From: Cycloclasticus sp.
Lineage (GTDB): Bacteria; Pseudomonadota; Gammaproteobacteria; Methylococcales; Cycloclasticaceae
DNA length: 64,000 bases
NCBI GenBank assembly: GCA_040743155.1
Contig: JBFLJU010000001.1
Coordinates: forward strand, 2,291,144 to 2,355,143
Reading direction: 5' to 3'
In this document: one piece after another, positions 9,463 to 33,620 of the stretch
Position numbering within the stretch: the stretch's first letter is position 1
Layout of the letters: each line of letters opens with the position of its first letter
Notes under the pieces: generated by a model
The model's input: only the letters and a program-made list of their open reading frames with translations
Told to the model about the DNA's origin: nothing
Database searches by the model: none
Program-made: the position numbers and the translations under genes

Positions 9463-9463
9463 A

Positions 9464-15627: not shown

Positions 15628-15649
15628 CGCCTCTTCACCATCCTAAAAC

Positions 15650-17767: not shown

Positions 17768-18252
17768 GTGAAATTGAACCAAGTGTTATTTTTAGTATTG
17801 AAAATTTAAACCGTGATTACATCTGCTCATTGGACAAATTGGACATGCATAAGTGGCTCGCTTGTTTTAATAAGCAGGGAACTTATACATTAATTTCAAA
17901 TGAAAACGAGCGCAATGGCTTCCCCATTGGCTTTATGCTAGATGATAAATATGAGCGTCTACAGGATAGAGTAAAGCAAGTCACAGAAATTCAAGAAGAC
18001 TCTACTGAACATTATCAAACAAGGCATATGACTCAATTAACGTCTATCACGTCTTTAGGAAATAATCGTTACCAAGCAGACTATAATTTCTCGACTTTTT
18101 ATACTCAAAACCTTATTGAAACAACTGATATCTTATGCGTTGGCCGCTATGAGGACATTGTCTTAATAGAAAACGGCTCTGCCAGCTTTATTCAACGTAA
18201 AGCCGTTATCGACACCAATGTACTACCTCGCTATATAGCTTACCCTATATAA
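17764..18252 (+). CDS. Rieske oxygenase beta subunit
   Basis: 162 residues, NTF2-like beta subunit partner of the alpha that overlaps its start by four bases. Characteristic segments: LNRDYICSLDKLDMHKWLACF, ERLQDRVKQV, HYQTRHMTQLTSI and the final IQRKAVIDTNVLPRYIAYPI, parallel in layout to the beta at 13873. A bidirectional terminator starts 8 bp after the stop. Together with the alpha it forms a two-gene unit on the plus strand facing the SDR operon. Confidence 0.85.
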   Translation: MSEIEPSVIFSIENLNRDYICSLDKLDMHKWLACFNKQGTYTLISNENERNGFPIGFMLDDKYERLQDRVKQVTEIQEDSTEHYQTRHMTQLTSITSLGNNRYQADYNFSTFYTQNLIETTDILCVGRYEDIVLIENGSASFIQRKAVIDTNVLPRYIAYPI

Positions 18253-18259
18253 CAAGCCA

Positions 18260-18293
18260 ATAAAAAAGCCCGCTAGTCGCGGGCTTTTTTATT
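18260..18293. terminator. Bidirectional terminator between convergent oxygenase operons
   Basis: AATAAAAAAGCCCGC-tagtc-GCGGGCTTTTTTATT: a GC stem (AGCCCGC/GCGGGCT) with A and T tracts on both sides, so it can end the plus-strand beta gene (17764) and the minus-strand SDR gene (18308). Confidence 0.93.
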
Positions 18294-18307
18294 GCATTAC
18301 GTCTGAC

Positions 18308-19102
18308 TTACTCTGGACGCACTCCAATACCAATACCACCATCAGAATTAATAATACTACCCGTGATGTAGCCACTATTTTTATCCGAAGCCAATAACAG
18401 ATAAATACCGGCGTGTGCTTCAGGTTCTGAAATAAAGCCCAACGGTGTCATACTACTAATTATTTTATCCACATCCGGTATTTCACTCAATTTCGCTTCG
18501 GCTTGACCCGCTACCGCACTGCCACCCAAACTGGTCATGGTTCCGCCAGGTGCAACACCATTAACTCTAATATCGGGTGCCACTTCATGGGCTAATTGCT
18601 TGATCATACCAATAACCGCATGTTTTGAAGCAACATAGATTGGCCCACCACCGCCTGTATAAAAGCTAGAACTCGATGCAGTGAAAACCATATTCCCTTT
18701 CGTCTTTCTCAATTCAGGTAACGCGGCCTTCGCCCCCAATAAATACCCCTTTACATTGACGGCAAAAACTTCATCACAAATACCTTCCACCTTATCGTCT
18801 TCTTGAGCTTCAAGCGGCACCATATAGTCCCAAATACCCGCATTACCAATAAATGTATCTAACTGGCCAAAACACTCAATTGTTTTAGCAACCGCCGCTT
18901 TATTATCTGCGAACGAACGAACATCGCCGGTAATACCTACCACCTTACCGTCAAACTTCGCTTCAAGAGCATCGACTCCTTCTTGAGACCTATCCATAAC
19001 GCACACGCGAGCCCCTTCTTCTACAAAACGCTCCACAACCGCCAAGCCTATACCCGACCCACCACCTGTAATCAGCACTACTTTACTATCCAACCATCCC
19101 AT
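18308..19102 (-). CDS. cis-Dihydrodiol dehydrogenase (SDR family, BphB/NahB-like)
   Basis: 264 residues, classical SDR. Cofactor motif TGGGSGIG near residue 12, NAG motif FIGNAGIWDY, catalytic S-Y-K with ASSSSFYTGGGGPIYVASK, and the C-terminal GSIINSDGGIGIGV seen in aryl cis-dihydrodiol dehydrogenases. It rearomatises the dihydrodiol from the dioxygenase to a catechol-type diol, using NAD+. It lies 26 bp after the beta gene of the oxygenase at 19129-20996, so the three make dioxygenase plus dehydrogenase in one operon. A terminator follows. Substrate range may cover products of several of the oxygenases here (inference). Confidence 0.9.
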   Translation of the reverse strand: MGWLDSKVVLITGGGSGIGLAVVERFVEEGARVCVMDRSQEGVDALEAKFDGKVVGITGDVRSFADNKAAVAKTIECFGQLDTFIGNAGIWDYMVPLEAQEDDKVEGICDEVFAVNVKGYLLGAKAALPELRKTKGNMVFTASSSSFYTGGGGPIYVASKHAVIGMIKQLAHEVAPDIRVNGVAPGGTMTSLGGSAVAGQAEAKLSEIPDVDKIISSMTPLGFISEPEAHAGIYLLLASDKNSGYITGSIINSDGGIGIGVRPE

Positions 19103-19128
19103 AAAAATTGCCTTATTTTATTTATAAT

Positions 19129-19650
19129 CTAAAGAAAAAAGTTCATATTGCTATCAAGCACCACACTATCATCCAATGTCATCGAACGGGTGAGTAATTT
19201 ATAGCCTTCAGCTGATTTTATCCAGGTATCTTCACGTCCAACAGTAAAGCGCTTCCTATCTGAATCTAATCGACTTCTATGTAATTCAACAATTGAATAT
19301 ACCTTAAACTGATCTTTCTCATCGGTCTCAAACACCTCTACGTTACTAATAATGTGACGTGATGCATTCATTGGGTTCTCAGCCCAGACAAAACCTGTAC
19401 TGTAGCGTCCAACCCTAACTTTGAGTGACTCCATATCATCCTTAAATATAGGTGTTTTAGCGGGTGCTCGTTGCCCAGACTTATCTTCCCTAAAACGCCT
19501 CTGCGGCATATCCATACAGTAGTAAATATCGTCAGATAATATAGTATTTAACCAATCATCATATCGTTCAGCACTTAGAATACGAGCCTCTTGGAATAAG
19601 TGTTTTTGTAGGTCTAAATAAATATCATTTTTTGCATGTACTAAGTTCAT
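19129..19650 (-). CDS. Aromatic ring-hydroxylating dioxygenase beta subunit
   Basis: 173 residues, same class as the beta at 8929: LQKHLFQEARILSAERYDDWL, YYCMDMPQRRF, ASRHIISNVEVF and the closing SMTLDDSVVLDSNMNFFL. The ATG shares bases with the stop of the upstream alpha (TAATG), indicating translational coupling. Partner of that alpha in an alpha3beta3 enzyme. Confidence 0.88.
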   Translation of the reverse strand: MNLVHAKNDIYLDLQKHLFQEARILSAERYDDWLNTILSDDIYYCMDMPQRRFREDKSGQRAPAKTPIFKDDMESLKVRVGRYSTGFVWAENPMNASRHIISNVEVFETDEKDQFKVYSIVELHRSRLDSDRKRFTVGREDTWIKSAEGYKLLTRSMTLDDSVVLDSNMNFFL

Positions 19651-20996
19651 TACTTACCCTCCGTAGCTTGTGCCTCTTCTAGGCTATTATAAAAGGGAAT
19701 ATCCGCCCAACTATCTGCTTTCATCATTTCTAGCCAGCGCCGGTACACATAGCGCTGATTTTGCTCACAGACCAGCCCTTCACTAATCACTCCAGGCATT
19801 TCTTCTCGGCTATGTTCACCACCAAGCGCCATATTGGTGTACACATCCATTTGCCCCGTTCTCCAACCGCGTGATTGCTCGGTAGCCGCCTGCAGGTTAT
19901 CTCCATCGTCATTGTCGAACATACCAGCTGGACCAAACGTTCGGCTAACATTATCAAGAATGACTTGTTTGAGCTCATCCGACATTTCTTTGTCTACCAT
20001 CGCCCAAGTCCACATTTCAAACTTTCCGGGGCCTTTGGGGTGGTAAACACGAAACCAATTAAGACCAGGCAAAAATTGCAAGTTGGGGAATACAGTCATA
20101 TTGACTTGTGAGCCCCACATCTTTTCACCACGAAACTTGCCTAAGCGCTCAACAACCGTTGCTCTGTTCGCATCTAGATAATCCCAGGCTTTCTGATATT
20201 CATTGTAAAAAGCATAGCCTGACTTACCGTCTAAAGCCGCCAGTACTGTGTGCCCATTCAATCCAGCAACAGATACCGCCGCAGCGTTGTCAACCTCACT
20301 ATTACCGACAGACAAGCCAGCTATACCTGATTCTGCTGTAACCGTCATAGCTCCTGCATGCGCCCAGCCCAAATGGTAGCCATCACCTGATACATTCTCT
20401 ACTGCAAGCTTCCAATTGACCGGTAACTCCACTTTCATTGCTGTACCAATAAGTTCTGTTCCTTCAGGCATCGCGTCCAACCAAACATCCATATACCACT
20501 TCATTTCACCTAGAGAATCTTCTAGGCTTGGCGCTTGTTCGTCAAAGGTAGCAAATATTAAGCCTTTATAACTGGCAATTTGCGCGACCTCAACCATGCC
20601 AAATTTAGATTTATCTAAATCATTACCATAAGCAGCTTCTTCAAGTGGTACACCGGTTAACTCCCCACTAAAATTAAAACTCCAGCCGTGGTAATTACAA
20701 ACAAATGTTTTACTGTTTCCATGGTCGGCCTTACATAAACGATTACCACGGTGTGTGCACGTATTCAAAAAAGCTTTTACACTCTTATCTTTCTGCCTAA
20801 CCACCAACACTTCATCCTCCCCCATAAAGGTACGAATGAAATCACCCGGTTTTTCAAGCTGGCACTCATGGGCTAAAAAAAGCCAACTGCGGCCAAATAT
20901 CTTCTCCATCTCTTGCTCATAAATATCAGCATCTGAATAGATAAGCCGTTTCTGACGGCCCGTTTTAAAATCTATTAAATCATCTAACTTTTCCAT
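19650..20996 (-). CDS. Aromatic ring-hydroxylating dioxygenase alpha subunit (naphthalene/biphenyl group)
   Basis: 448 residues. Rieske ligands C80-T-H82-R-G and C100-N-Y-H103-G-W; iron ligands H208, H213 and the C-terminal Asp in DNDDGDN, with the bridging Asp at D205 (SGDGYHLGWAH). It is clearly paralogous to the alpha at 9464, sharing RSWLFLAHE-QLEKPGDF and CTHRGN blocks, so the locus holds at least two enzymes of one subgroup. It sits 30 bp downstream of the PQQ alcohol dehydrogenase gene on the same strand and upstream of beta and dihydrodiol dehydrogenase genes. The alcohol dehydrogenase and this oxygenase may therefore be co-expressed. Confidence 0.92.
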   Translation of the reverse strand: MEKLDDLIDFKTGRQKRLIYSDADIYEQEMEKIFGRSWLFLAHECQLEKPGDFIRTFMGEDEVLVVRQKDKSVKAFLNTCTHRGNRLCKADHGNSKTFVCNYHGWSFNFSGELTGVPLEEAAYGNDLDKSKFGMVEVAQIASYKGLIFATFDEQAPSLEDSLGEMKWYMDVWLDAMPEGTELIGTAMKVELPVNWKLAVENVSGDGYHLGWAHAGAMTVTAESGIAGLSVGNSEVDNAAAVSVAGLNGHTVLAALDGKSGYAFYNEYQKAWDYLDANRATVVERLGKFRGEKMWGSQVNMTVFPNLQFLPGLNWFRVYHPKGPGKFEMWTWAMVDKEMSDELKQVILDNVSRTFGPAGMFDNDDGDNLQAATEQSRGWRTGQMDVYTNMALGGEHSREEMPGVISEGLVCEQNQRYVYRRWLEMMKADSWADIPFYNSLEEAQATEGK

Positions 20997-21026
20997 CTCT
21001 CTTCCTCTATTAATTTAATTATTTAA

Positions 21027-23057
21027 TTATTTAACAACATACTCATATATGGCATTCACTTCGTCTGCTGATAGCTTATTACCCCATGCCGGCATTGAAC
21101 CCTTTCCATTGATAACTGAATCGTTAAACCGTGCCTTATCATTTTTAGGGAACGTACGAAGATCAAACGTTGTGCCCGCGGTTTTCATTTCTACACCATG
21201 GCAGTGCGAGCAAGCCTGCTCATAGAGCTCCGCACCGTGCTTTACGAGATCAGACCATTCTGCTTTATTGGCCACCGTTGAATCTATTTGATGCTCTTCT
21301 GGCGGCCGATTAGTTTCAGCATGAATAGTGCTATGGTCTGCGCCTTCAGCCAATTCAAACACCCAAATGGAACCGCCGGGGTTAACATTTTTTAGATCTA
21401 TATCACCTGAAAAATTGGTGTATACCCCGCCGATTCCACTGGCTACAGCAATATACTGCTTACCGTCAATTTGATAAGTAATCGGCGGCGCAATAATCCC
21501 TGAGCCGGTTCTAAATTCCCATAATTTCTCGCCGCTTTGTGCATTTAGTGCATACAACTCGCCCGTTTGAGCACCCGAAAAGACGACATTTCCTGCTGTC
21601 ACTAACGTGCCCCCATTCATTGGCACCGTTGTTGGGAATTCCCATTTTGCCTGACCGGTCAACGGGTCTATAGCTCGTAAATAACCTTTATTTCCTTCGG
21701 GAAATATCCACTTAAAGCTCGCCCCAATATAGAACATCCCTTGTTTATACTCTTGTTTTACGGGTGTGTATTTCCAGCCCACGTTAAATGTGTTGGCGTA
21801 GGCAAGCCCTGTTTTAGGGCTATAAGACATGGGTGCTAGGTTTTTACCGCCAAATGCAGATGGCCAAATTTCGGTCGTTTCACCCGTCTTCAACATATTT
21901 TTTACACGCTCGGACACGATTGGCCTACCGGTTTCCATATCGATACCGTCAGCCCATGTCACCTTATCAACGAATTGATTGGCTTTTAGTAGCTTTCCAT
22001 TGGTGCGGTCAAGTACATAAAAAAATCCATTCCTGTTTGCTTGCATCATGACTTTGCGTTCAGAGCCATCAATCATAATATCCGCAAGAATCGGGTCATT
22101 GACCCCGTCATAGTCAAAACCATCGTTTGGGGTAAATTGATAATGCCAAACCAACTCGCCGGTTTTTGGTTTTATGGCGATGACACTCTCAGTAAACAGG
22201 TTGTCACCCGGGTGCATGTTTGCATTCCATGGTGCCGTATTACCCACACCCCAGTACACAATATCCAGTTCTTTATCGTATGAACCAATAAGCCAAGTCG
22301 GGCCACCGCCGCGCTTCCAGTCGTCCCCTTGCCAAGTATCATTACCAAGCTTTCCAGGTTCTGGCACGGTATAAAAACGCCATAAATGTTCACCCGTACT
22401 GGGATCCCAGCCATCCAAGAAGCCCCTTGCACCAAATTCTCCACCGGCAATGCCCGTAATCATTGTGCCGTTAGCTATTAGCGGTGCGCTGGTCATGGAG
22501 TAACCTTCTTTTACGTCTGCCGCACGCTTTTGCCAAATAACCTTGCCATTTTTTGGGTCAAGGGCCTGAACCCGATTATCCAGCGTTACACGGTATAAAA
22601 TACCTTCATGCCATGTCGCTCCTCTATTGGTGATACCACAGCAAGTCAGTGTATCTGGTGGGTATTGAATCTTGCTTTTCCATAATTGACGCCCTGTTTT
22701 TGCGTCAATCGCATAGCTTGCATTATGCGTGGTTGCATACATAACGCCGTCTATAATTATCGGCTGCGTTTGTTGCCCGCGGTTATCACCTAGGGATAAG
22801 ATCCATGCCGGCTTTAATTGCGCAGCATTGCTCTCGTTAATTTGCGTTAAAGCAGAATAGCGCTGTAAATTTTGCTCTAACCCGTAATACCTAACGCCGG
22901 TATTTTGATCAGCAATATCAGTGTTGATAGCCTCATCAGCTGAAGTCGTTACACCCGCAGGTTCTTTACTGGCTATCTGATCAGGTTGATCATTGCTACA
23001 GCCAAGTAAGATAATGAACAATAGAAGATATGCCAGTTTTTGTTTTATATTAAACAT
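21027..23057 (-). CDS. PQQ-dependent quinohaemoprotein alcohol dehydrogenase, predicted lipoprotein
   Basis: 676 residues. The N-terminal 20 residues form a lipoprotein signal with lipobox LLGC (Cys20), unusual for this normally soluble periplasmic family. Then comes an eight-bladed PQQ propeller with the vicinal disulfide motif TCCGIT and NDGFDYDG near the catalytic and Ca2+ site. A C-terminal cytochrome c domain carries the haem motif CSHCH and the distal Met region GSMPAWG. It oxidises an alcohol in the periplasm and passes electrons to the respiratory chain through haem c. It is followed directly by an oxygenase operon and preceded by the DUF1329/DUF1302 module, so the substrate may be a hydroxylated aromatic or alkyl-aromatic compound (inference). 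Confidence 0.9.
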   Translation of the reverse strand: MFNIKQKLAYLLLFIILLGCSNDQPDQIASKEPAGVTTSADEAINTDIADQNTGVRYYGLEQNLQRYSALTQINESNAAQLKPAWILSLGDNRGQQTQPIIIDGVMYATTHNASYAIDAKTGRQLWKSKIQYPPDTLTCCGITNRGATWHEGILYRVTLDNRVQALDPKNGKVIWQKRAADVKEGYSMTSAPLIANGTMITGIAGGEFGARGFLDGWDPSTGEHLWRFYTVPEPGKLGNDTWQGDDWKRGGGPTWLIGSYDKELDIVYWGVGNTAPWNANMHPGDNLFTESVIAIKPKTGELVWHYQFTPNDGFDYDGVNDPILADIMIDGSERKVMMQANRNGFFYVLDRTNGKLLKANQFVDKVTWADGIDMETGRPIVSERVKNMLKTGETTEIWPSAFGGKNLAPMSYSPKTGLAYANTFNVGWKYTPVKQEYKQGMFYIGASFKWIFPEGNKGYLRAIDPLTGQAKWEFPTTVPMNGGTLVTAGNVVFSGAQTGELYALNAQSGEKLWEFRTGSGIIAPPITYQIDGKQYIAVASGIGGVYTNFSGDIDLKNVNPGGSIWVFELAEGADHSTIHAETNRPPEEHQIDSTVANKAEWSDLVKHGAELYEQACSHCHGVEMKTAGTTFDLRTFPKNDKARFNDSVINGKGSMPAWGNKLSADEVNAIYEYVVK

Positions 23058-23142
23058 TCCCTTCCCCTTATATTGCTACATACTATTAATTTCTATCTCG
23101 TCTTACTATACTTTTTCCTTTTAAAATTGATTTCAGGCATAA

Positions 23143-23176
23143 AAAAAGCAGTGAAGCTTTCGCCTCACTGCTTTTT
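23143..23176 (-). terminator. Terminator of the first DUF1329 gene
   Basis: GCAGTGA-agctttcgcc-TCACTGC flanked by A and T tracts, 22 bp after the stop of the gene at 23198. Its upstream flank (GATTTCAGGCATAAAA) is nearly the same as that of the terminator at 24959, consistent with duplication of gene plus terminator. Confidence 0.9.
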
Positions 23177-23197
23177 AACGCTAACTACTTGTTTGCT

Positions 23198-24616
23198 TTA
23201 TTGATAATCGCGTAATTGATCAATATCAAACATTTCGTCCGAAACTTCCTCACCACGATCGTCCCATGATGAATTCATAAGTAACGTTGATACACGTTGA
23301 GTAACTTGGTTTGAAATGATCGTTGAACGCCACTGCATATCGCCAACAGATGGACGGAAATCACGCACTTCATCCCAGTTTCTAAATGCGTTTCCACGAG
23401 GGTCCCATGTCATTTGATACTGCGCATAATAGTACTCTTTATCAATATAAGAACGACGTTTTGAATATTGGTATTTGCCTGTTTTATCAGTAATTTCCAA
23501 AATCCATGTTGGGCGAAGTTCAAGTTCAACACTTTCCCAATTACACTTGTCCGCTGTTAATACTTGCGAATCATATGCGTGACCCACTTCAGGTGACGAA
23601 AGAATTAATGCTTCTCCTACTAACTTGTAGTCAAACATAGTTGTATCTGTCTTAACCCAGTATGCACGCCAATCATCCCATGTGAGCTCTAAACCAGATG
23701 CCAAAGGATCCTGAGAATCAGAACCTGTTAATAGTCTCGTTCTTCTTAAGCTTGGAATAAATACTTTAAAGTCATCTTCTTTACCTGACTCAGCGTATCG
23801 TTGTCTAACACCAGCAAGACCCCTAACATCGTTGGGCTCTAAGAAGAATACAGAACCACCTTCAATAAATTTCTCTTTACCGTATATGTCGCCCATAGGA
23901 GCTACATTCGTGCGGTTGTGATAGTGCCACCACCATAAGTCCGCTTTATATTCTCTATCAAGCTTACCGTCGCTAGTACATGCATTCATTGTGACTGCGT
24001 TAAAGCTCAAGGTATCTGAATTAGTAGAATGTGCTACATAATCCCAATTTAGCTCAATACCATTTTTAGGATTTAAAAAAGGAATCGCTGTACTAGCGTC
24101 ACCACTCATCAGTGCATATGAACCGTCTTCATATAACAGGTTTCCATCTTCACCAATGACTAGCTTAGTATTATTTTCTTTAATTGCTTTGGTACCTTTT
24201 AAGTAACCTTCATGCATATAGTAGGTGTTAGTCGGCACAATTTTAAATTGCTTAATGTTTGCCCACTTATTTCCTAGTGCTTCATACATCTCTTTTGGTA
24301 AGTAGTCTTTTAACCATGGGTAATCGGCTTTATTTTCATTGGTGATGATTAACCCAGGCTTTAGCTCTGCAGGAATCTCAGCTTTTTCAATAAGATCATA
24401 CGCATCGTAGCCACGTAGTTCTTTCCACTGTTTTGCTAATTTAATAGCTTTAGGGTCTGAAATTAATTTAACCCATTTGTCATAATTTGGGTTCTTTTCA
24501 GAAGCAGCAAATGCTTTCCATGCTTCTAGCGCTTTATTGGTATCCGCCAATACAGGCGATGCCACTGATACAGCTGCTGCGAATCCAATCGCTGCTGCAA
24601 ATTTACTCATCTTCAT
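23198..24616 (-). CDS. DUF1329 family periplasmic protein, copy 1
   Basis: 472 residues with a Sec signal peptide (MKMSKFAAAIGFAAAVSVASPVLAD, cleavage after VLA). The family is defined by blocks such as RRTRLLTGSDSQDP, FFLEPNDVRGLAGVRQRYA and MTWDPRGNAFRNWDE, all present. DUF1329 is predicted to have an LolA/LolB-like lipid-carrier fold and is usually found with DUF1302 and an RND permease in degraders of hydrophobic compounds; the exact function is unproven. A close paralogue lies just upstream at 25021. It has its own terminator and, given the 404 bp gap, may have its own promoter. Likely a soluble periplasmic shuttle (inference). Confidence 0.88.
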   Translation of the reverse strand: MKMSKFAAAIGFAAAVSVASPVLADTNKALEAWKAFAASEKNPNYDKWVKLISDPKAIKLAKQWKELRGYDAYDLIEKAEIPAELKPGLIITNENKADYPWLKDYLPKEMYEALGNKWANIKQFKIVPTNTYYMHEGYLKGTKAIKENNTKLVIGEDGNLLYEDGSYALMSGDASTAIPFLNPKNGIELNWDYVAHSTNSDTLSFNAVTMNACTSDGKLDREYKADLWWWHYHNRTNVAPMGDIYGKEKFIEGGSVFFLEPNDVRGLAGVRQRYAESGKEDDFKVFIPSLRRTRLLTGSDSQDPLASGLELTWDDWRAYWVKTDTTMFDYKLVGEALILSSPEVGHAYDSQVLTADKCNWESVELELRPTWILEITDKTGKYQYSKRRSYIDKEYYYAQYQMTWDPRGNAFRNWDEVRDFRPSVGDMQWRSTIISNQVTQRVSTLLMNSSWDDRGEEVSDEMFDIDQLRDYQ

Positions 24617-24958
24617 TTATTGCTCCTTCATATTACTTATGTTTATATCAATCAAAATAGCCACGCATAACCAATCCTTCAATTGGTTTATTCAAACAGT
24701 TAAATAAGTAATTTGGTAATCAATTAAGTTTACCTCATCCAATTTGATCAGCTTGAGTCTTCTATACAAGCTAGCTACAGATAATCCTCAACAAATCTAT
24801 CTGTCATGCACTTATAGATATCAAGTCTTCAGGAATGTTTACTAGTGGATAATTCTATACAAGCTTTAATTATTTAGTTCTTAATGCTAGTTCAAGGTCC
24901 TCTAACATCATTTACATATTATAAGAGCTTTTAACGTCTGCATTATTGATTTAAGGCA
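24617..24958. other. Intergenic region between the two DUF1329 genes
   Basis: About 340 bp of A+T-rich sequence between the start of copy 1 and the terminator of copy 2. I see no open reading frame or RNA gene. It includes AGGAGC at the expected ribosome-binding position for the gene at 24616, and probably a promoter for it, but I could not pick a convincing -35/-10 pair. Confidence 0.5.
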
Positions 24959-24997
24959 TAAAAAAAGCAGCGAAACCGAAGTTTCGCTGCTTTTTTG
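24959..24997 (-). terminator. Terminator of the second DUF1329 gene
   Basis: AAGCAGCGAAAC-cgaa-GTTTCGCTGCTT: a 12-bp stem followed by T residues on the minus strand, 24 bp after the stop at 25021. Confidence 0.93.
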
Positions 24998-25020
24998 TAT
25001 CTCTGTTTAACTATTAAGCT

Positions 25021-26436
25021 TTACTGATAATCACGTAATTGGTCAATATCAAACATTTCTTCTGTTACATCTTCTTCACGATCTGTCCAAGCACCATCTA
25101 ATCGAAGTGTTGTATGTCTTTGCGTAGCTTCATTCAAAATAAGCACGTTTTTCCACATAGCATCACCAACGCTTGGTCTCCAATCACGCGCATCATCCCA
25201 AGTACGGAATGGATTACCGCGTGGATCCCAAGTCATTTGATATTGTAAGTAGTAAAACTCTTTATCAATATAGGTTTCACGCTTTGAGTACATATACTTA
25301 CCAGACTTATCAGTTACTTCTAGAACCCAAATCGGTCTAAGTTCTACATCCATATTATTAATTCCACACTGATCTTCAGTCCAATCTATAGGGTCATATG
25401 CATGTCCAACTTCTGGCTGAGCAAGAATAAAGCCTTCTCTTACAAGTTTGTAATCAAAACTTTTAATATTTGTCTTCGCCCATGAACCACGCCAGTCATC
25501 CCAAGTAATCTCAAGGCCTGAAGCCATAGGATCTTGTGAGTCAGAACCTGTTAACAAGCGAGTACGACGCAAACTAGGAATAAACACTTTAAAGTCATCT
25601 TCTTTATCTGGACCTGCGTAACGTTGTCTAACAGCAGCCAAGCCGCGAATATCGTTTGGCTCTAGGAAGAATACTGATCCACCTTCAACGTATTTTTCCT
25701 TACCTTCAATCTCACCCATCGGTGCAGTAACTGATCGGTTGTGATAATGCCACCACCACAAATCGGCTACATAACCACGCTCATGCCCATCAGGTGAACA
25801 TGCATCAAATTTAACAGGGTTAAATGCAAGCGTGTCATTATTGGTTGAATGAGCTACGAAGTCCCAGTGAAGCTCCATGCCATTTTTAGGATGAAGAAAC
25901 GGTATAGCCGTAGCGCCAGGACCAGACATTAGCGCTCTCGTGCCATCGTCATACTTAAGGAAACCTGTCTCATCAATAGTGATATTAATATTCTTATCAC
26001 GAAGTTCTTTAGTGTTTTTCAAATATCCTTCATGCATATAGTAGGTATTTGTTGGCACAATTGTAATTTGTTTAATATTAGCCCATTCACCACCTATATG
26101 AGCATATACCTCTTCTGGTAAATATTTCTTTAACCAAGGGTAATCGCCTTTGTTTTCACCATTAATAACCAAACCAGCCTTTAGGTCCGCAGGTATATCT
26201 GCCTTATCCATTAAATCGTAGGCATCATATCCACGTAAGTCCTTCCATTCTTTCGCTAAAGCAATTGCTTTAGGGTCTGAAATTAGAGTGACCCATTTAT
26301 CATAATTAGGGTTATTTTGCTCTGCCGCAAAGGCTTTCCAAGCATCTAAGGCCCTATTTGTATCCGCCATAACCGGCGCCGTAACTGATACAGCCGCTAC
26401 AAAACCAAGCGCTGCTGCTATTTTATTTAATTTCAT
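25021..26436 (-). CDS. DUF1329 family periplasmic protein, copy 2
   Basis: 471 residues, with signal peptide MKLNKIAAALGFVAAVSVTAPVMAD. It aligns with copy 1 along its whole length: same start of the mature chain (DTNxALxAWKAFA), same RRTRLLTGSDSQDPxASGLE block and the same last residues EEMFDIDQLRDYQ. The duplication is therefore in tandem and includes the terminator. It is preceded by the DUF1302 gene on the same strand (134 bp, with a terminator) and belongs to the envelope module. Two carriers may differ in ligand or may form a heterodimer (inference). Confidence 0.88.
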   Translation of the reverse strand: MKLNKIAAALGFVAAVSVTAPVMADTNRALDAWKAFAAEQNNPNYDKWVTLISDPKAIALAKEWKDLRGYDAYDLMDKADIPADLKAGLVINGENKGDYPWLKKYLPEEVYAHIGGEWANIKQITIVPTNTYYMHEGYLKNTKELRDKNINITIDETGFLKYDDGTRALMSGPGATAIPFLHPKNGMELHWDFVAHSTNNDTLAFNPVKFDACSPDGHERGYVADLWWWHYHNRSVTAPMGEIEGKEKYVEGGSVFFLEPNDIRGLAAVRQRYAGPDKEDDFKVFIPSLRRTRLLTGSDSQDPMASGLEITWDDWRGSWAKTNIKSFDYKLVREGFILAQPEVGHAYDPIDWTEDQCGINNMDVELRPIWVLEVTDKSGKYMYSKRETYIDKEFYYLQYQMTWDPRGNPFRTWDDARDWRPSVGDAMWKNVLILNEATQRHTTLRLDGAWTDREEDVTEEMFDIDQLRDYQ

Positions 26437-26530
26437 TCTGTTCTCCTGTTATTACTTTTTACTTTATATATTTAATTAGTCCTTACTTTCTATATTGCCT
26501 CTTGCCTCTTTATTTGCATTTACGCAAAAT

Positions 26531-26565
26531 AAAAAAAAAGCGGGGAATTAATTCCCCGCTTTTTT
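26531..26565 (-). terminator. Terminator of the DUF1302 gene
   Basis: AAGCGGGGAATT-AATTCCCCGCTT: a perfect palindromic stem, with seven A residues before it and T residues after it, just beyond the stop at 26571. It may allow partial read-through into the DUF1329 genes. Confidence 0.93.
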
Positions 26566-26570
26566 ATTTC

Positions 26571-28634
26571 TTAGAACTGGTATGTTAAAGATAGTTCAAC
26601 ATAATCAGAGTGGTCGTACATTCCAATTGGTGGGCTTTCTGCGTCACCTGATAAATGCAACCATTCTAGACGTGGGCGCCAGCTGTCACCGAAGTAGTTG
26701 AAGTCGATACGTTGACGATATAGTGTTGCATCATTTGTAAAGTCTTCAATAACTAAACCTTCAAGAACTAATCTTTGACTGTCTAACGGCATGCTCCATA
26801 AGAACGTCATATAGTTCTGGTGGTCTGACACTTCGTCTAATGCATAAGGTGCTTGAGCTAACAAACCTTCATCTGCATCGTGTGTATAAATATCAAACAA
26901 TTGAAAGCTTGTGAAGATTGATTTTTCCTGACCTTCCCAACCTGGTACCCAGAACGGGAAATCTATACCAATCATCGCTGAAGTAATGTCTGATTTAGTA
27001 ATCGCATTACTAGGTATAACAGCCAATGCACCAGAACTTCCTTGATCTATATTTGCCGACCCATCTAGATTTATGGTCGCATCTAGCCCAGCAAAATTTT
27101 CTGTAGGATTAACAATTGAACGGTTGAACGGGTGATCAAATTCATGGCTTACTTCTAAACGTATAGAAGGTGATGAATTTTTACGCCCAAAAGCCATAAA
27201 GTCTGACAAGTCACGAGTAAAGGTTGCACCTACCACCATTTGTCTGTAGTCGTAATCTAGTTCTACACCTGCTCTTACAGAACAAAAAGCTACTGAATTG
27301 TCTCCATCTGCATCCAATACTGGATCATTACATGCCCCTAACCCAAATCCAAAAGCTGTCGTAGCTGCTGTTAATGGGCTTCCTTGTGGTAAACCACCCG
27401 TTAATACATTGCCACCGACAGACAGGTCACGTAACCAATCTAAGTAACCGCCAGCACCATGCACAATCGCCTCTGTTTGGGAAGCTGAAAATGTGTAACG
27501 ACCTCCTGTCGCAGAAGGTAAAGGGGCCAAACCGCCAGTTCCCCAAGTACCAAAACCAGCTCCTGCACCAGTTGTAACATCACCACCGATAAATAAATCC
27601 AGCCCTCTTAATTTGAGTACCGGCAAATCTTGCATGCCGTAAAAAGCATTTAGTGTTGCAACACCCCCAAGTGTTTCAAATTTCAAACGCAATGAGTATT
27701 CGGCGTCTGAAAAGCTCAGTCTTTTGGATTTATGCTCAGGTGTTGCAAATGCAAAACCAACTAAACCACTACCGGAGGGCTCATCTAGTGTTACTGGCCA
27801 AGGCAAGCCAAATAGACCACCGGCTGAGTCAGACTCGCCAGGTGTTGGATTGTTAACGATAACATTCGAATGGAAAACTTCTGGTGTGAAGTTAAACTCA
27901 ACTGTTGGCCGGTGCATACCGAGTGCTTCGAACGGCGCCGCCATTCCAAGTTTCTTTAGGTTAAAGTCCACTGATAGCATTAATGCCGGGATACGTAGCT
28001 CATCTGAGTCTCTAAAAGCAAAGCGCTCACGTAAGTCTTGTGCGTGCAGTAAATCGATTAAACGTAGACCATCTGACTCACCCCAGCCACGCTGTTGTTT
28101 ACCAAATTTAACACTAAAGCGTCCTTTTCTATCACGATATTTAACCGATAACTCACGAATAACTTCTTCCCAGTCATTAAGGATTTGCACCTCACTGGTT
28201 TCACGACAGGTGTAACCCACATTGCCCTTACAATTATTGAGTTTAAACGGCACAGTACCAGGGAAAGTAATATTTGGAAATGATAGCGGATCCGTTGGAT
28301 CTAAACCTGGTTCAAACGCAAAACTCGGAGTTTGATCAGTTACACCACCAACTGAATTAAAGCTGGTAAATTCTGTTGATAAATCGCCTCGTAACCAGAA
28401 ATTTGCTACGAATGTCCATTTTCTACTTGGACGGTATGTCGTTTTTGATTCGATGATCCATTGCGACGGACCCATTTTATTACCTTGATCTTTAAGATCA
28501 TACAACACGGATGCACCAACTTTGATACGACCGTTTTGTGTTAGACCTTTAATACCGGTATCTAACGCAAAAGCAGGCGCAGCTATTGCTAACCCTAATG
28601 CGGCCGCTAGGCCTGTTTTTATTATTGACTTCAT
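26571..28634 (-). CDS. DUF1302 family outer-membrane beta-barrel protein
   Basis: 687 residues. Signal peptide MKSIIKTGLAAALGLAIAAPAFA, then a long chain rich in alternating hydrophobic/polar strands and ending in F (LSLTYQF), the C-terminal signature of outer-membrane barrels. The segment SVKFGKQQRGWGESDGLRLIDL is typical of DUF1302. These proteins are found with DUF1329, an RND permease and a Ycf48-like protein, and are thought to form the outer-membrane part of a transport system for hydrophobic substrates. Next upstream gene is the RND permease (117 bp away). The family function is not proven biochemically. Confidence 0.88.
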   Translation of the reverse strand: MKSIIKTGLAAALGLAIAAPAFALDTGIKGLTQNGRIKVGASVLYDLKDQGNKMGPSQWIIESKTTYRPSRKWTFVANFWLRGDLSTEFTSFNSVGGVTDQTPSFAFEPGLDPTDPLSFPNITFPGTVPFKLNNCKGNVGYTCRETSEVQILNDWEEVIRELSVKYRDRKGRFSVKFGKQQRGWGESDGLRLIDLLHAQDLRERFAFRDSDELRIPALMLSVDFNLKKLGMAAPFEALGMHRPTVEFNFTPEVFHSNVIVNNPTPGESDSAGGLFGLPWPVTLDEPSGSGLVGFAFATPEHKSKRLSFSDAEYSLRLKFETLGGVATLNAFYGMQDLPVLKLRGLDLFIGGDVTTGAGAGFGTWGTGGLAPLPSATGGRYTFSASQTEAIVHGAGGYLDWLRDLSVGGNVLTGGLPQGSPLTAATTAFGFGLGACNDPVLDADGDNSVAFCSVRAGVELDYDYRQMVVGATFTRDLSDFMAFGRKNSSPSIRLEVSHEFDHPFNRSIVNPTENFAGLDATINLDGSANIDQGSSGALAVIPSNAITKSDITSAMIGIDFPFWVPGWEGQEKSIFTSFQLFDIYTHDADEGLLAQAPYALDEVSDHQNYMTFLWSMPLDSQRLVLEGLVIEDFTNDATLYRQRIDFNYFGDSWRPRLEWLHLSGDAESPPIGMYDHSDYVELSLTYQF

Positions 28635-28751
28635 GGTTTCCCCTTTATTTTCTTGTCAATTGCTTATATATATTTTCTAACACTTGTTTTATACACTAAT
28701 TTTTTAGCGCCACATAGTGTTTTTTATCTTTTTTACAACACTGTTGTTTTA

Positions 28752-31085
28752 TTATTTCGTAGCAGCATCCTTGATGGTAAATAACGCTTTCGGGTGGAAT
28801 GCTGCAATTGCTGCTGGTACAAACAGTAACGACCCCAACATATTCATGAATAACACCATTGACAATAACATGCCCATTTCAGCTTGGAACCTTAGTGGTG
28901 ATGCAACCGCCCATGGAATTAACGGCGCTATCATTGTCACCGCTGTAATAAAGATCGCGTTACCCGATGTTAAGAAGGCATGGTGAATCGCTTCGTGCAC
29001 ATCTTTTACTTCTAAGTTCCGGTATTCTTCTTTAATTCTATCGATCATGTAAATACCGTAATCCACCCCTAGACCTACACCCAGCGCAGCTAGCGGTAAA
29101 GTACTAACGTTTAAGCCCACTTCTTTCCACGCCATAAAGGCGTAAGTTAGTGAGTTAGCCGTTGCCAAACTAAATAATAGAATCAAGCCAGTAGTAACCG
29201 AGCGGTAGTACAAGACAATACAAAAGAAAATAACAAAAGCGATCGCCACCATTGTTTTAACGTTTGAATTAACGATTTCTTTATTAAGTGCCTCGACGAT
29301 ACCAACTTGCCCACCCATATATAAGAACTTGGCATCACTGACCACTTCTTTTTCACTGGCAAAGAAAGCGTCCAAGTTATCTCTTAACTTTTGGATTGTT
29401 GGTCGACTATGATCTTCTAGGAAGAACGATATATTACCAATTTCCCAGTCGTTGTTTGTGTAGGCCGCAAAATCACCCGGCTCACCCCTTGAACGGAACA
29501 TGTAGATATCAAAACCTACTTCTTCTTTAGTATCTGGAATGAGCGCGTACGACGGATCCCCTTCAAACAACACCGAGTTAATTAACTTAATGATGGGCAC
29601 TAAGCTGATGGCTGGACGTACTTCAGACATATGCTCAAATACATAGCGATCAAGCGCTTCTGTTTGGTGATACACAGACGGATCCAACATGGTGTCCTTT
29701 TCACCTTCCACATAGACTTGCATCATATCGGTTCCCAAAAATGAGAATCGAGTATTAATTGATTCAACGTCTTTATTAAAGCGAGCTTCTGGCCACAAAA
29801 TAGCACTACCTTTTGTATCACCAACCGTTAGGTTTTGTGAATACCAGCCACCCATTGCTAATAAACTCGCTGTGATGAAGACCATTGTCCACTTGTGATC
29901 TTCCATATTAATCACAGCAGCCCAAATTTTATTGAGAATAATTGAACCCGTTTTGTGCGACTTTGGTGGTTTGATTAAGCACATAACCGCTGCAGCAAAT
30001 ATAAGTGCAGGTACAACAGATAGTAGCCATAAACCACAAATTACCGCCAGTGATTCGATACTTGGAATAGCAACTAGCCCTAACACACCAAAACCGGCCG
30101 CATCAGTAATAATCGCCGCTGTACTTGGTACCAACAATAACGCCAAACCATCTCTAGTACAGACACGACAATCTGTTGGTCGCTCATCACAGGCATCAAT
30201 ATTATCCAATATTCGCGTAGTGAACTGCACACCATGCGATAACACGATGGCAAAAATAAAGGCCGGTAAGAGAATGAGCAGTGGATCAAGGTTATACTCA
30301 ACCGCACCCATTGCACCTAGACCCCAAATTGTCGCTACTGAAGCTGTAAACATTGGAATAAACACGCCAACCCATGTTCTAAAGTATAAGAACAAAATAA
30401 TCGCAATAATTACCAATGACGCCGCTAAAATATTAAACACAGCATCTAGTGATTGGTAGATGTAACCAAGTAGTATCGGGCGACCCACAAAGTTAATTTC
30501 TAAATCATCCCCTTCATATTTTTCGCGTAAATCTAGGAAAAAGTTAAGGACTTCTAACTTGTCTGCCTCATCTCTAAAGTCTGCAATGATAATAGCTGAG
30601 GTTTCATCATTAGAGACTTGAAGACCTCTATATTGTTTATTAACAAACTGACGCATACGCGTCATATCTTTTTCGTTTTTAGGTAGATCTGGCCACAGCA
30701 AAGCATCCACACCCACACGACCGCCACCACCTGAAATCGCCTTTGTTTTTCTAAGCACTAAAGACTGGCTTAAATGGCGATATGTACTCTTGTTGTAGTA
30801 CACATCTTCAGCAATCTGCTTGTAGTTTTTTAAATAATCAAGGTTATAAATATTTCCCTTCTTATTTTTTACTTCAATTAAGGTCGTATTCGCGCCGCCA
30901 AACTGCTCACCAAACCTCAAAAACAATTCAACATTATTTGAGTCTGCTGGTAGCATTTCTTCTAATACAACATTCAGCGACAGGCCTTTATACGCATAAT
31001 ACCCAGGCACAATTGTTATTAGTGCCAACAATGAGGCAACAAATACCGGATGCCTTGAAATAAAACTGGATAATTTATTAATCAT
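28752..31085 (-). CDS. RND/MMPL-family permease
   Basis: About 777 residues from the ATG at 31085, which overlaps the stop of the upstream Ycf48-like gene (TAATG) and has GGAG upstream; a longer start at 31100 is less likely. The protein has the HAE3/MMPL layout: one N-terminal membrane helix, a periplasmic loop of about 170 residues, five helices, then the same repeated. The GVGLGVDYGIYMIDRIKEEY motif is in the second half. Such permeases use the proton gradient to move lipids or hydrophobic compounds. Genetic coupling with the Ycf48-like and DUF1302/1329 proteins suggests one trans-envelope complex. Confidence 0.9.
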   Translation of the reverse strand: MINKLSSFISRHPVFVASLLALITIVPGYYAYKGLSLNVVLEEMLPADSNNVELFLRFGEQFGGANTTLIEVKNKKGNIYNLDYLKNYKQIAEDVYYNKSTYRHLSQSLVLRKTKAISGGGGRVGVDALLWPDLPKNEKDMTRMRQFVNKQYRGLQVSNDETSAIIIADFRDEADKLEVLNFFLDLREKYEGDDLEINFVGRPILLGYIYQSLDAVFNILAASLVIIAIILFLYFRTWVGVFIPMFTASVATIWGLGAMGAVEYNLDPLLILLPAFIFAIVLSHGVQFTTRILDNIDACDERPTDCRVCTRDGLALLLVPSTAAIITDAAGFGVLGLVAIPSIESLAVICGLWLLSVVPALIFAAAVMCLIKPPKSHKTGSIILNKIWAAVINMEDHKWTMVFITASLLAMGGWYSQNLTVGDTKGSAILWPEARFNKDVESINTRFSFLGTDMMQVYVEGEKDTMLDPSVYHQTEALDRYVFEHMSEVRPAISLVPIIKLINSVLFEGDPSYALIPDTKEEVGFDIYMFRSRGEPGDFAAYTNNDWEIGNISFFLEDHSRPTIQKLRDNLDAFFASEKEVVSDAKFLYMGGQVGIVEALNKEIVNSNVKTMVAIAFVIFFCIVLYYRSVTTGLILLFSLATANSLTYAFMAWKEVGLNVSTLPLAALGVGLGVDYGIYMIDRIKEEYRNLEVKDVHEAIHHAFLTSGNAIFITAVTMIAPLIPWAVASPLRFQAEMGMLLSMVLFMNMLGSLLFVPAAIAAFHPKALFTIKDAATK

Positions 31086-32338
31086 TATTTTTCTCCCCAA
31101 CGACTAGATATCAGCTTAACCGCTTCAGACCCAGCTATATTTAGTTTCTGCCCGAAGGACATATCATTCAAATTACCTTTTACAATCATGCCGCGTAAAC
31201 CTGCTGCCCAAAAGTCACCTGACGGTGTTACAGCAATCCCACCCATCCAAACGTATGGAAGCGGGAAGCCTTCTTGAGGCGTTAGACTTGTCACTGTAAA
31301 TGTTGGCTGTAATACTTGTTCTACTGCCTCTGCTTCTACCACAGCATCATCCATAGACACTTTAAGTACGATTGACGCACCCGTAACCAACACATCATTG
31401 TTGCTTGCGCTGGCGACGTCATATAAGTGATTGCTGACTCCACTGTCTATTTCGCTAACGAAATAATCAATCTCTGTTTCTGGCAATACCGCTACTTCTT
31501 TAGCCACATATTCTTTGCCACGCCGCTCTGCTTTCTTTCTCGCTCTGGCTTCTTTTTTTGCCAGCTTTGCATCTTTAATTGCTTTTACTGACTCTCGTTG
31601 AGCGTCTGTCGCTAGCGTAAGGGAATAAATACCGCCATCCAAGCCAACCGCAACCGCACCATCTCCCTGAGTTGCTATTGAAAGTAAGGTTCCTGAACTT
31701 CGGTTATACGTAACCATCCATAGTTCACCACCGTTTTCGGTATGCGCGATCGTTCCAAACTCACCCACCAAAATTGCAGTATTAGCATCTTTTGCAACAA
31801 CGCCATGTAATCTTGGTAAATCGCGGCCGTCAAAACCCGTTAACGATTGCTTTTGCCAATTTTTACCGCCATCCTTTGTATGCCAAATCGCCGAGTCATG
31901 GCCAACAGCCCAGCCATTGTTTGCATCTGCAAATGCAATGTCTCTCAAATAAGTGCCGGCGTCTTGTTTTTGAACTTCCCACGTTATACCAGCGTCTGCT
32001 GTATGTAGGATTGATCCGCGATGACCTACGGCCCAGCCATTATTCGCATCGACAAATGAAACGTGACGAATAAGTTCATTGACCCCCATGTAAACTGCGC
32101 CCCATGACTCACCGCCGTCCTCTGTTCTAAAAAGGGAACCAGAATAACCTGCTACAAAGCCAAGCTTGTCATCAACAAATTCAACTGCGTATAAATTATC
32201 AGGCCAAAATCGGTGGAACTGACTTTGTTCGGCCGAATCGCCATTTTCTGCTATAGCAATTCCACTTATTAGGAACGCCAATACAAGCGCGAATAAAAGG
32301 CGCGAGCCTTTACTTTGTTTAATATTTATCGATTTCAC
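31085..32338 (-). CDS. Ycf48-like/BNR-repeat periplasmic protein
   Basis: 417 residues with a cleavable signal (LFALVLAFLISGIAIAE). Repeated blocks such as GYSGSLFRTEDGGESW, GHRGSILHTADAGITW and GHDSAIWHTKDGGKNW show the bladed BNR/Ycf48 propeller. Ycf48 is a photosystem II assembly factor in phototrophs; in heterotrophs this protein accompanies DUF1329/DUF1302/RND genes, where its role is unknown (perhaps an assembly scaffold). A lysine/arginine-rich, probably coiled segment (about residues 235-265) interrupts the propeller. First gene of the minus-strand module; a good sigma-70 promoter lies upstream. Confidence 0.88.
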   Translation of the reverse strand: MKSINIKQSKGSRLLFALVLAFLISGIAIAENGDSAEQSQFHRFWPDNLYAVEFVDDKLGFVAGYSGSLFRTEDGGESWGAVYMGVNELIRHVSFVDANNGWAVGHRGSILHTADAGITWEVQKQDAGTYLRDIAFADANNGWAVGHDSAIWHTKDGGKNWQKQSLTGFDGRDLPRLHGVVAKDANTAILVGEFGTIAHTENGGELWMVTYNRSSGTLLSIATQGDGAVAVGLDGGIYSLTLATDAQRESVKAIKDAKLAKKEARARKKAERRGKEYVAKEVAVLPETEIDYFVSEIDSGVSNHLYDVASASNNDVLVTGASIVLKVSMDDAVVEAEAVEQVLQPTFTVTSLTPQEGFPLPYVWMGGIAVTPSGDFWAAGLRGMIVKGNLNDMSFGQKLNIAGSEAVKLISSRWGEK

Positions 32339-32642
32339 TATCTTCCCCTCATCAACGGAATCTATTTTTTATAGATTTGTTTACAATTTTCAATCTAACA
32401 AGCGTTCAAATTTATAATAATTGGGCTGTTACTGTCAATGACAATTATCACTAATTGAGAAGCATCATCATAACTCTTAGCCGGTTTACCAAATTCTAAA
32501 CACTTAACTTTGCAAACCGAATATATATGAATTCTTTAACTTTGTACCCCTTTTTTTTCAAAAATTAAATTTAATATTAGGTTTTACTTAATTAACGAAT
32601 TTTGTTACTTTCATCACCCACCTTAACCACCTTGGAAGCACC
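32339..32642. other. Divergent intergenic region (Ycf48-like gene / quinone oxidoreductase)
   Basis: 304 bp, A+T-rich, non-coding on both strands. It contains the sigma-70 promoter for the envelope module at 32411-32438. The inverted repeat TGTCA-a-TGACA at 32433-32443 overlaps the -35 and could be an operator. Nothing else clear. Confidence 0.6.
32411..32438 (-). promoter_or_regulatory. Sigma-70 promoter of the envelope transport module
   Basis: On the minus strand TTGACA (32438-32433), 16-bp spacer, TATAAA (32416-32411). The start would be near 32404, about 66 bp before the Ycf48-like ATG. A perfect -35 and near-consensus -10 suggest strong basal expression. Confidence 0.65.
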
Positions 32643-33620
32643 ATGTACTCAAGCCTTTCTGCTAAGATTTATCAAACCGGCGACTCCAGTGTTTTTCAAC
32701 TTGAATCAACTAACGTAAACCCGCCGAAAGCTCATCAAGTGCTCATTAAGCAAACCGCAATTGGTGTCAACTATATAGATACCTATTTTCGCTCTGGTCT
32801 TTACCCGGTTGAATTACCGTCTATATTAGGTGACGAGGCTGTTGGCGTCGTTGAGCAAGTAGGCGAGGGCGTTAGCGAATTTTCTGTTGGTCAACGTGTT
32901 GCTTATTCAGCTGCAAAAGGTGCTTACACTCAATATAGAGTCATCGATATAAACGAGCTTGTGCCTGTGTCCGACGGTATTGAAGATAGCGCCATCGCCA
33001 CCAGTTTGCTTAGAGGCATGACGGTTGAATACCTGCTCTGTCGTTTGTATGAACTAAAAGCCAGCGACACCATATTAATTCACGCGGCGGCCGGTGGAGT
33101 AGGCCAGATTGCCTGCCAGTGGGCCCGTACAATTGGTGCGACCGTTATTGGCACCGTTAGCTCTGCCGAAAAGGCTCGTATTGCTGAGAAGTGTGGCTGT
33201 GATTTTGTCATTAATTACTCTGAGCAAGATTTTGTGCAAGCTGTTGACGAGATAACAAAAGGTCAAAAAGTAGATGTTGTGTATGACGGCGTGGGCAAAA
33301 CTACTTTTATGAAATCGCTTGATTGCCTCCGCCCGCGCGGACTGATGGTCAGTTTTGGCAATGCGTCTGGTAAACCGGACCCCTTTGACGTATTGGAGCT
33401 GTCAAAAAAAGGCTCTCTTTACTTAACCCGCCCGACGCTATATCACTACACTAGAAATCGGCAAGAGATCCTTGAAAGCGCCGCTCGTTACTTAGATAAA
33501 CTTGAGAAAGGGCAGATCAAAATACAAATAGGCGCGACTTTTTCACTCTCTGATGTTGCTAAGGCACATGATTATTTAGAACAGCGAAATACAACGGGCA
33601 GCCCTGTCTTAATTCCTTAG
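32643..33620 (+). CDS. NADPH:quinone oxidoreductase (zeta-crystallin/MDR family)
   Basis: 325 residues, the length of QOR/zeta-crystallin. GVNYIDTYFRSGLYP near the N-terminus is the quinone oxidoreductase signature, and AAAGGVGQIACQWA is the NADPH-binding loop; no structural zinc cysteines are seen. These enzymes reduce quinones and protect against redox-cycling products, plausible beside aromatic oxidation. ATG with a GGAAG site upstream. It is divergent from the envelope module and converges on the EamA permease. It could equally be a housekeeping gene. Confidence 0.88.
   Translation: MYSSLSAKIYQTGDSSVFQLESTNVNPPKAHQVLIKQTAIGVNYIDTYFRSGLYPVELPSILGDEAVGVVEQVGEGVSEFSVGQRVAYSAAKGAYTQYRVIDINELVPVSDGIEDSAIATSLLRGMTVEYLLCRLYELKASDTILIHAAAGGVGQIACQWARTIGATVIGTVSSAEKARIAEKCGCDFVINYSEQDFVQAVDEITKGQKVDVVYDGVGKTTFMKSLDCLRPRGLMVSFGNASGKPDPFDVLELSKKGSLYLTRPTLYHYTRNRQEILESAARYLDKLEKGQIKIQIGATFSLSDVAKAHDYLEQRNTTGSPVLIP

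Follow-up and report, generated by a model that had tools for sequence, protein, structure and literature searches.

The single contig (2,563,313 bases) of assembly GCA_040743155.1, from the marine oil degrader Cycloclasticus sp., carries, in the 64,000-nucleotide window analysed here (bases 2291144-2355143), a five-gene transporter unit, unit E, at window positions 23198-32338. All five genes lie on the minus strand and encode, in order of transcription, a Ycf48-like propeller, an RND permease, a DUF1302 barrel and two DUF1329 proteins, E1 and E2; downstream follow a pyrroloquinoline quinone (PQQ) alcohol dehydrogenase, the alpha and beta subunits of a Rieske dioxygenase and an SDR of the dihydrodiol-dehydrogenase type. 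As judged from its sequence, unit E is a tetrapartite transporter of the AmeABCD kind with another gene order, and it is probably a four-protein trans-envelope machine with one part, DUF1329, doubled, spanning both membranes. What is new here is that one genome contains four complete units that have diverged from one another, and that the catabolic set next to each is a different one. The question at stake is whether bacteria actively import hydrocarbons or merely pump them out, and four diverged machines beside different catabolic sets amount to a natural experiment on both cargo and direction.

A sequence-only reading of this DNA had described five envelope genes on one strand, with the propeller stop and permease start overlapping as TAATG. 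Both statements hold, each family being matched by Pfam and the overlap being present in the sequence. That reading placed the system at 21027-32338; the five genes do lie in this span, but position 21027 belongs to the adjoining PQQ dehydrogenase and the unit itself starts at 23198. The PQQ dehydrogenase and dioxygenase set that it named as neighbours was recovered with TIGR03075, PF00355/PF00848, PF00866 and SDR models. The propeller has an N-terminal signal sequence, judged by eye. For the permease the best NCBIfam match is HAE3 (TIGR00921), at 138.8 bits and thus under its cut-off of 351.9, and the models of HpnN (TIGR03480, 41.8 bits against 751.85; NF052374, 21.6 against 1100) and BstA (NF045600, 22.6 bits, cut-off 1400) fall far short. 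A crude scan finds 12 hydrophobic peaks in this protein, one of which (residues 489-507) lies within the presumed second periplasmic loop. The DUF1302 protein has a signal-like N-terminus and ends in LTYQF. An aromatic-X-Phe C-terminus is a signature of outer-membrane proteins, and all five DUF1302 proteins found in the genome have such a tail. The model of the unit E protein is of fair quality (pLDDT 68.5), and all 50 Foldseek matches listed for it are porins or porin-like barrels, so the outer-membrane barrel of the sequence-only reading now has a medium-confidence model behind it.

The same reading had proposed LolA-like carriers, and this is borne out for E1, the DUF1329 protein that was modelled. 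The AlphaFold2 model (59 sequences, mean pLDDT 89.5) contains a LolA-fold domain at about residues 184-471, preceded by an N-terminal helical region that fold matching barely tests. It matches LolA3 of Porphyromonas gingivalis (9tp6) with Z 24.8 over 237 residues, the DUF1329 crystal structure 4z48 with Z 23.2 and a further LolA-superfamily entry with Z 22.8. Because of this fold, and the Z of 24.8 to LolA3, a lipid-carrier-like role fits DUF1329, and on the strength of the model we prefer a carrier to the membrane-fusion role proposed for this family in PMC6394551. Unit E thus resembles the Lol system in its LolA-fold carrier; it differs in that the Lol carrier is served by the ABC transporter LolCDE, whereas the unit E permease is an RND protein. 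By Pfam, the ten proteins encoded at 18308-33620 include neither an ABC transporter nor a membrane-fusion protein and TolC-like channel, the partners of HAE1 pumps. No LolA-type domain fused to an RND was found, none of 77 RND proteins matching two carrier models. One RND of 1020 aa (L021:1280-4342, a locus of the relatives' set described below) is extended at its C-terminus by a region judged ankyrin-like by eye.

Co-occurrence of the four families

The sequence-only reading took the four families for one unit. Relatives' loci (numbered with L, and genomes with G) were ranked by how closely their RND resembles that of the window, and the best 80 of at least 560 were labelled with models built from 1-8 sequences of the window genome; many of them end at contig edges. 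All four families stand together in at least 48 of the 80, a lower bound, open reading frame calling having given no RND in L024, L052 and L094. The order in these 48 is DUF1302-DUF1329-Ycf48-RND in 39, Ycf48-RND-DUF1302-DUF1329 in seven and RND-DUF1302-DUF1329-Ycf48 in two, that of L029 depending on a weak, opposite-strand Ycf48 match.

In a survey of 229 genomes of the class, with thresholds of >400 bits for RND, >=76 bits for strong DUF1329 and an E-value of 1e-8 for DUF1302 (58 genomes), the RND type was found in 37, every one of which also holds strong DUF1329 and a DUF1302 match (Fisher p 1e-39, kinship ignored). At most eight DUF1329, five DUF1302 and four RND candidates were scored per genome, so that copy numbers are lower bounds. 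Weak DUF1302 rows, mostly from genomes without strong DUF1329, were dropped, which makes the figure of 40 genomes with DUF1302 a selected set; some dropped rows adjoin MMPL genes of lower score and short matches of the LolA_like type (e.g. G102). The genome search missed the DUF1302 of the window itself, which was added to the counts; the 37 of 37 is independent of the dropped rows. Strong DUF1329 occurs where no RND was found in three genomes (G153, G179 and G193), which may be misses, the RND match of G193 being cut by a contig end. Both DUF families lie within 10 kb of 42 of the 56 RND places (41 on one strand); one or both are missing within that distance at the other 14, some of them near a contig start. 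Among 14 named control genomes DUF1302 was found in none, and DUF1329 in one, under the cut-off. These results support the view that the four families form one unit, beyond chance.

Systems of this kind have been described before. AmeABCD of Castellaniella defragrans 65Phen consists of DUF1302, DUF1329 (LolA superfamily), COG4447/Ycf48-like and HAE3-type RND proteins encoded in a hydrocarbon-catabolic island (PMC6394551). Unit E likewise has DUF1302, DUF1329, Ycf48-like and RND genes together in a catabolic island; it differs in order (C-D-A-B-B' against A-B-C-D for Ame) and in adjoining aromatic ring dioxygenation genes rather than a monoterpene pathway, Ame being compared by description and not by alignment. 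In Pseudomonas putida, PP_0765/PP_0766 and PP_2018/PP_2019 are needed for Tween 20 metabolism and have correlated fitness; co-folding is strong for PP_2018-PP_2019 and weak for DUF1329 with the barrel and with the RND (PMC10866462). This set, too, combines DUF1302, DUF1329, a periplasmic protein and an RND-type efflux transporter, and is set apart from unit E by its encoding at two places and its Tween 20 phenotype; the Pseudomonas relatives among our 80 loci have Ycf48-RND pairs. COG4447-COG1033-PF07044-DUF1302 sets of Betaproteobacteria, the same four families again, are predicted from binding motifs to be co-regulated with phenol/aromatic catabolism by AphS/AphT/AphR (PMC6449761). The 'Nanopod' cluster of the benzene degrader ORM2a (DUF1329, Ycf48-related, MMPL and porin-like proteins) was highly detected during benzene degradation (PMC13101534); unlike unit E it concerns anaerobic benzene and adds a universal stress protein as well as one more hypothetical protein. 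The DUF1302/DUF1329 pair of hydrocarbon degraders is mentioned further in PMC3110197 and PMC7012976. According to PMC13101534, deletion of a Delftia DUF1329 gene impaired growth on phenanthrene; a term search of PMC3958437 found no trace of this, and we do not use it as evidence. With the AmeABCD, Tween 20, AphS/AphT/AphR and 'Nanopod' sets all of the same kind, the suggestion that this is the least-described system in the window falls, and its description as an undescribed system was rejected (PMC6394551, PMC10866462, PMC6449761, PMC13101534).

Four units and their catabolic partners

The complete units of the 2.56 Mb genome are E in the window, B at 2270-2277 kb, C at 438-445 kb and D at 766-773 kb. 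Locus A (2250-2254 kb) has DUF1302 and DUF1329 only, 61-62% identical to those of B. The RNDs of the other units are 23-28% identical to that of E; unit B has the Ame order A-B-C-D, and the Ycf48 assignment in unit D is weak (23.1 bits, under the cut-off of 27). Gene names at the genome and genus loci are from best BLAST matches, our own models or inspection by eye unless Pfam is cited. On these, unit C neighbours a Rieske gene, a phenol hydroxylase and an XylR_N regulator, unit B an AlkB-like FA_desaturase-family protein, a Rieske gene and, by eye, a CoA-ligase-like gene, and unit D hydantoinase-type carboxylase-like genes. The genome has 14 Rieske alpha genes, and four of the five loci (E, B, C and A) have one within 5 kb, which was matched by 8 of 5000 placements in a rotation test at 5 kb and by 42 of 5000 at 10 kb. 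When just the four complete units are counted, three of four have such a gene, a result matched by 14 and 36 of 5000 at the same distances.

A quick tree of the RNDs, with rows cut to the first 850 residues, long branches and poorly supported deep forks, places E with L015-L020 in a seven-row clade of its own, apart from the clade that holds 39 of the 40 Ame-order units. C pairs with L031 and D with L029, and these two lineages stand next to each other (support 97). B falls in a large clade with Pseudomonas, Shewanella, Desulfuromonadales and others. A partial literature search, mostly of titles and passages, found no earlier statement of a pathway-matched transporter repertoire.

The partners were followed through 18 Cycloclasticus genomes, including our own, in which 28 other RND places were labelled by best match to the window genome. 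In the search for relatives' loci the closest named relatives were two Cycloclasticus metagenome-assembled genomes, whose RND is 92% identical to that of the window. Lineage E occurs in eight of the genus genomes, C in seven, B in nine and D in three, and five further RNDs are more distant. Partner counts include the window genome and cover loci that reach far enough; those ending at a contig edge before the partner were set aside (L103, L108 and L118 for E, L095 and L099 for C, L101 for D, L113 for B). E keeps its PQQ alcohol dehydrogenase and its SDR in 5/5 and its dioxygenase in 4/5, C keeps its Rieske gene in 5/5, B its AlkB-like and Rieske partners in 5/8, and D its hydantoinase-type genes in 2/2. 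Each transporter lineage thus tends to keep its own catabolic partner across the genus. At thresholds of 1e-60 (RND) and 1e-10 (DUF1329), and with a PF00848 match defining Rieske alpha, RND and Rieske copy numbers are correlated (Spearman 0.67, p 0.002, n=18; uncorrected for kinship or incompleteness), and two genomes that are 99-100% complete and have no Rieske alpha match (G232 and G233) have neither the RND type nor DUF1329.

Outside Cycloclasticus, lineage E is represented by four loci (L017-L020) among the best 80 of at least 560. PF02332 diiron monooxygenases are found nearby in L017, L018 and L019, an XylR_N/V4R sigma-54 activator adjoins the unit in L018 and L019, and L020 has a truncated gene that clusters by BLAST with these two activators. 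These neighbours support an aromatic cargo from outside the genus as well. Tandem DUF1329 carriers are present in the window genome, L104 and L018, and single ones in L105, L106 and L107. L103 and L105 duplicate the records L015 and L016 and were omitted from a tree of the carriers, in which E1 clusters with L015 and L107 (99/99) and E2 takes no settled position.

Two further loci of the genome hold related proteins. A DUF1329 protein, copy G (L013:6545-7951; genome ~272544-273950), is 49% identical to E1 and pairs with the second carrier of L018 in the carrier tree; its gene overlaps the end of the apolipoprotein N-acyltransferase gene (lnt) by 4 bases, and no adjoining barrel or RND was recognised. 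At 2115.4-2119.7 kb (L014:3430-7712) an MMPL permease and a LolA_like protein are accompanied by a third, secreted-looking protein of 402 aa, which has no Pfam match and may be a barrel. Thalassolituus TOL_3187/3188, an n-C28-induced MMPL-LolA fusion together with a porin (PMC6304351), is comparable. Both sets resemble unit E in combining an RND, a LolA-fold carrier and a third, possibly barrel, protein. They differ from it in that a small LolA_like protein replaces DUF1329 at 2115-2120 kb, with no Ycf48-like protein among the neighbours listed, and that the LolA-like domain of Thalassolituus is fused to the RND (PMC6304351). By analogy, the 2115-2120 kb set suggests that RND, LolA-fold carrier and barrel may be a general scheme.

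Cargo and direction of transport

Direction aside, we consider it very probable that unit E works as a single carrier-based transporter of an apolar substrate on which the neighbouring pathway acts. The sequence-only reading had proposed a hydrophobic cargo, and the conserved linkage to oxygenases favours an aromatic one; the likeliest cargo is the aromatic compound that this pathway takes as its substrate. The components that a complete route would need, barrel, LolA-fold carrier, propeller and RND, are all encoded. We infer the contacts between the parts, their energy coupling, the cargo and the direction as follows. The DUF1302 barrel would pass an apolar aromatic compound across the outer membrane and the LolA-fold DUF1329 would ferry it across the periplasm; the Rieske dioxygenase and dihydrodiol dehydrogenase would act on the compound delivered, and the periplasmic PQQ dehydrogenase would do so if it is an alcohol. 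Net inward delivery has, in our judgement, about an even chance, and the whole explanation, an AmeABCD-kind transporter dedicated to the adjoining aromatic pathway and delivering inwards, comes close to that. We lean inward because the transporter lineages are matched to pathways, because relatives are needed or induced on lipidic food, namely Tween 20 (PMC10866462) and, for the analogous MMPL-LolA fusion, n-C28 (PMC6304351), and because the acetate rescue of an ame mutant also fits failed substrate supply (PMC6394551).

Several observations weigh against inward delivery or against pathway matching. The direction known for LolA carriers and for characterised bacterial RND exporters is outward. 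A FadL/TodX-family barrel encoded in the window itself (42082-43464) offers hydrocarbons another possible way in. The Rieske gene nearest to unit D is 139 kb away, and three B units (L110, L115 and L116) lack the B partners. In L106 (G229:C1:2356000-2374000) the transporter is present, yet the SDR follows the PQQ dehydrogenase with no dioxygenase alpha or beta gene in between; G231 and G234, which have no PF00848 match, still carry one and two RNDs, none of E or C type. Finally, in the sole direct experiment on a relative, the ameABCD mutant tolerated less limonene and slightly more Nile Red was kept in cells treated with carbonyl cyanide m-chlorophenylhydrazone (CCCP), and the authors concluded that AmeABCD exports (PMC6394551).

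Net efflux is accordingly the leading alternative, a substantial possibility to which we give less credence than to delivery. The RND would extract a toxic hydrocarbon or pathway product from the inner membrane and load it on DUF1329, and the barrel would release it, protecting the degrading cell. An outward direction is canonical for both LolA and RND proteins. The limonene and Nile Red results, as their authors read them, speak for such a pump (PMC6394551), as does the predicted co-regulation with aromatic genes, which was interpreted as a response to toxic concentrations and to solvent stress (PMC6449761). The ameABCD deletion impaired growth on limonene and other apolar monoterpenes but left growth on perillyl alcohol, perillyl aldehyde and perillyl acid unimpaired (PMC6394551). 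Against a pump, acetate restored growth of the mutant with up to 5 mM limonene, which would also follow from a failure of supply, and mutant and wild type hardly differed in the kinetics of Nile Red efflux (PMC6394551). The findings with Tween 20 and n-C28 are hard to read as detoxification, both compounds being, as we see it, barely toxic, and diverged lineages each tied to one pathway suggest a narrow cargo, unlike that of general solvent pumps.

Unlikely, in our view, is export of a lipid, surfactant or envelope component that the cell makes itself and needs for growth on hydrophobic food, in the way that HpnN serves hopanoids; the cargo would then not be the food. HAE3 is the best NCBIfam match of the permease, HpnN is matched weakly too, and many Shewanella, Rheinheimera and Pseudoalteromonas loci have, by eye, housekeeping-like neighbours and no recurring catabolic set. 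Yet the HpnN and BstA models score far under their cut-offs, Pfam identifies no lipid-synthesis enzyme among the ten proteins of 18308-33620, and the joint absence of Rieske matches, RND type and DUF1329 from G232 and G233 is unexpected for a general envelope function. That the four families are mere neighbours with unrelated functions would suit the 14 RND places short of a DUF partner and is otherwise scarcely credible, given the 37 of 37 genomes, the recurrence of gene orders across phyla and the correlated fitness and co-folding in P. putida (PMC10866462).

Inward delivery by unit E could be one instance of a wider arrangement. By analogy, obligate hydrocarbon degraders might hold cargo-matched, proton-driven aromatic importers, one old lineage per oxygenase pathway, whose LolA-fold carriers work inward; we put this forward tentatively and regard it as doubtful. 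A precedent for inward carriers is NPC2, which hands sterol to the RND-related NPC1. If such a repertoire exists, hydrocarbons would as a general trait be brought across both membranes by active import specific to the substrate, not by passive diffusion. The genome with its four units also offers DUF1302 and DUF1329, Pfam families without a named function, a testable joint role.

Transcription, feature coordinates and the rest of the window

Unit E is probably not one simple transcript. A single operon is doubted because hairpins within the unit flank E1 (Table 1); these carry T-runs, so that E1 may have its own expression level. Over the whole window terminator-like sites are not in excess (13 against 12.9 in shuffles), and promoter-like sites number 25 against 39.0.

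Table 1. Coordinates of unit E, its catabolic neighbours and terminator-like hairpins in the window
Feature	Position	Strand	Evidence
Ycf48-like (BNR) beta-propeller, AmeC-like	31085..32338	-	PF14870 98 bits; PDB Ycf48 5ojr/2xbg E 7e-20
MMPL/RND permease, 777 aa from ATG in TAATG, AmeD-like	28752..31085	-	PF03176 84 bits
DUF1302 outer-membrane barrel (predicted), AmeA-like	26571..28634	-	PF06980 28.6 bits, cut-off 23.2
Terminator-like hairpin, bidirectional, between barrel and E1	26534..26565	-	Pattern scan; fold z -5.3
DUF1329 carrier 1 (E1), AmeB-like	25021..26436	-	PF07044 77.3 bits
Terminator-like hairpin between E1 and E2	24961..24996	-	By eye, not in pattern-scan list; fold z -6.3
DUF1329 carrier 2 (E2)	23198..24616	-	PF07044 94.6 bits; 69% identical to E1
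PQQ alcohol dehydrogenase, C-terminal cytochrome c	21027..23057	-	TIGR03075 638.7 bits, cut-off 480.05; lipobox LLGC by eye
Rieske ring-hydroxylating dioxygenase alpha subunit	19650..20996	-	PF00355/PF00848
Ring-hydroxylating dioxygenase beta subunit	19129..19650	-	PF00866
SDR, cis-dihydrodiol dehydrogenase type	18308..19102	-	NF004849 373.8 bits (cut-off 330); BphB_TodD 302.8, under cut-off 459.85
Terminator-like hairpin ending catabolic set, after SDR	18258..18294	-	Pattern scan; fold z -6.5

Among PDB entries the Rieske alpha subunit is matched best by biphenyl dioxygenase (2gbw), and its closest group comprises biphenyl and naphthalene dioxygenases; the best NCBIfam model is HcaE, at 393.7 bits and under its cut-off of 830. 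The genome has one match to PqqD.

Beyond the catabolic set, window positions 7984-18252 are dense in additional Rieske oxygenase genes; genes that look by eye like small subunits accompany them, as do a gene of the PdxA family and a BphC-like extradiol dioxygenase. The FadL/TodX-family outer-membrane protein is encoded on the plus strand (PF03349, 137 bits). At 47611-54363, also on the plus strand, DnaA is followed, by eye, by dnaN, recF and gyrB, and the GC skew changes sign; this is probably the chromosome origin, though contig numbering starts elsewhere. A type I restriction-modification set occupies 54809-59910 on the plus strand, with HsdM- and HsdR-type genes by Pfam and a middle gene that is HsdS-like by eye.

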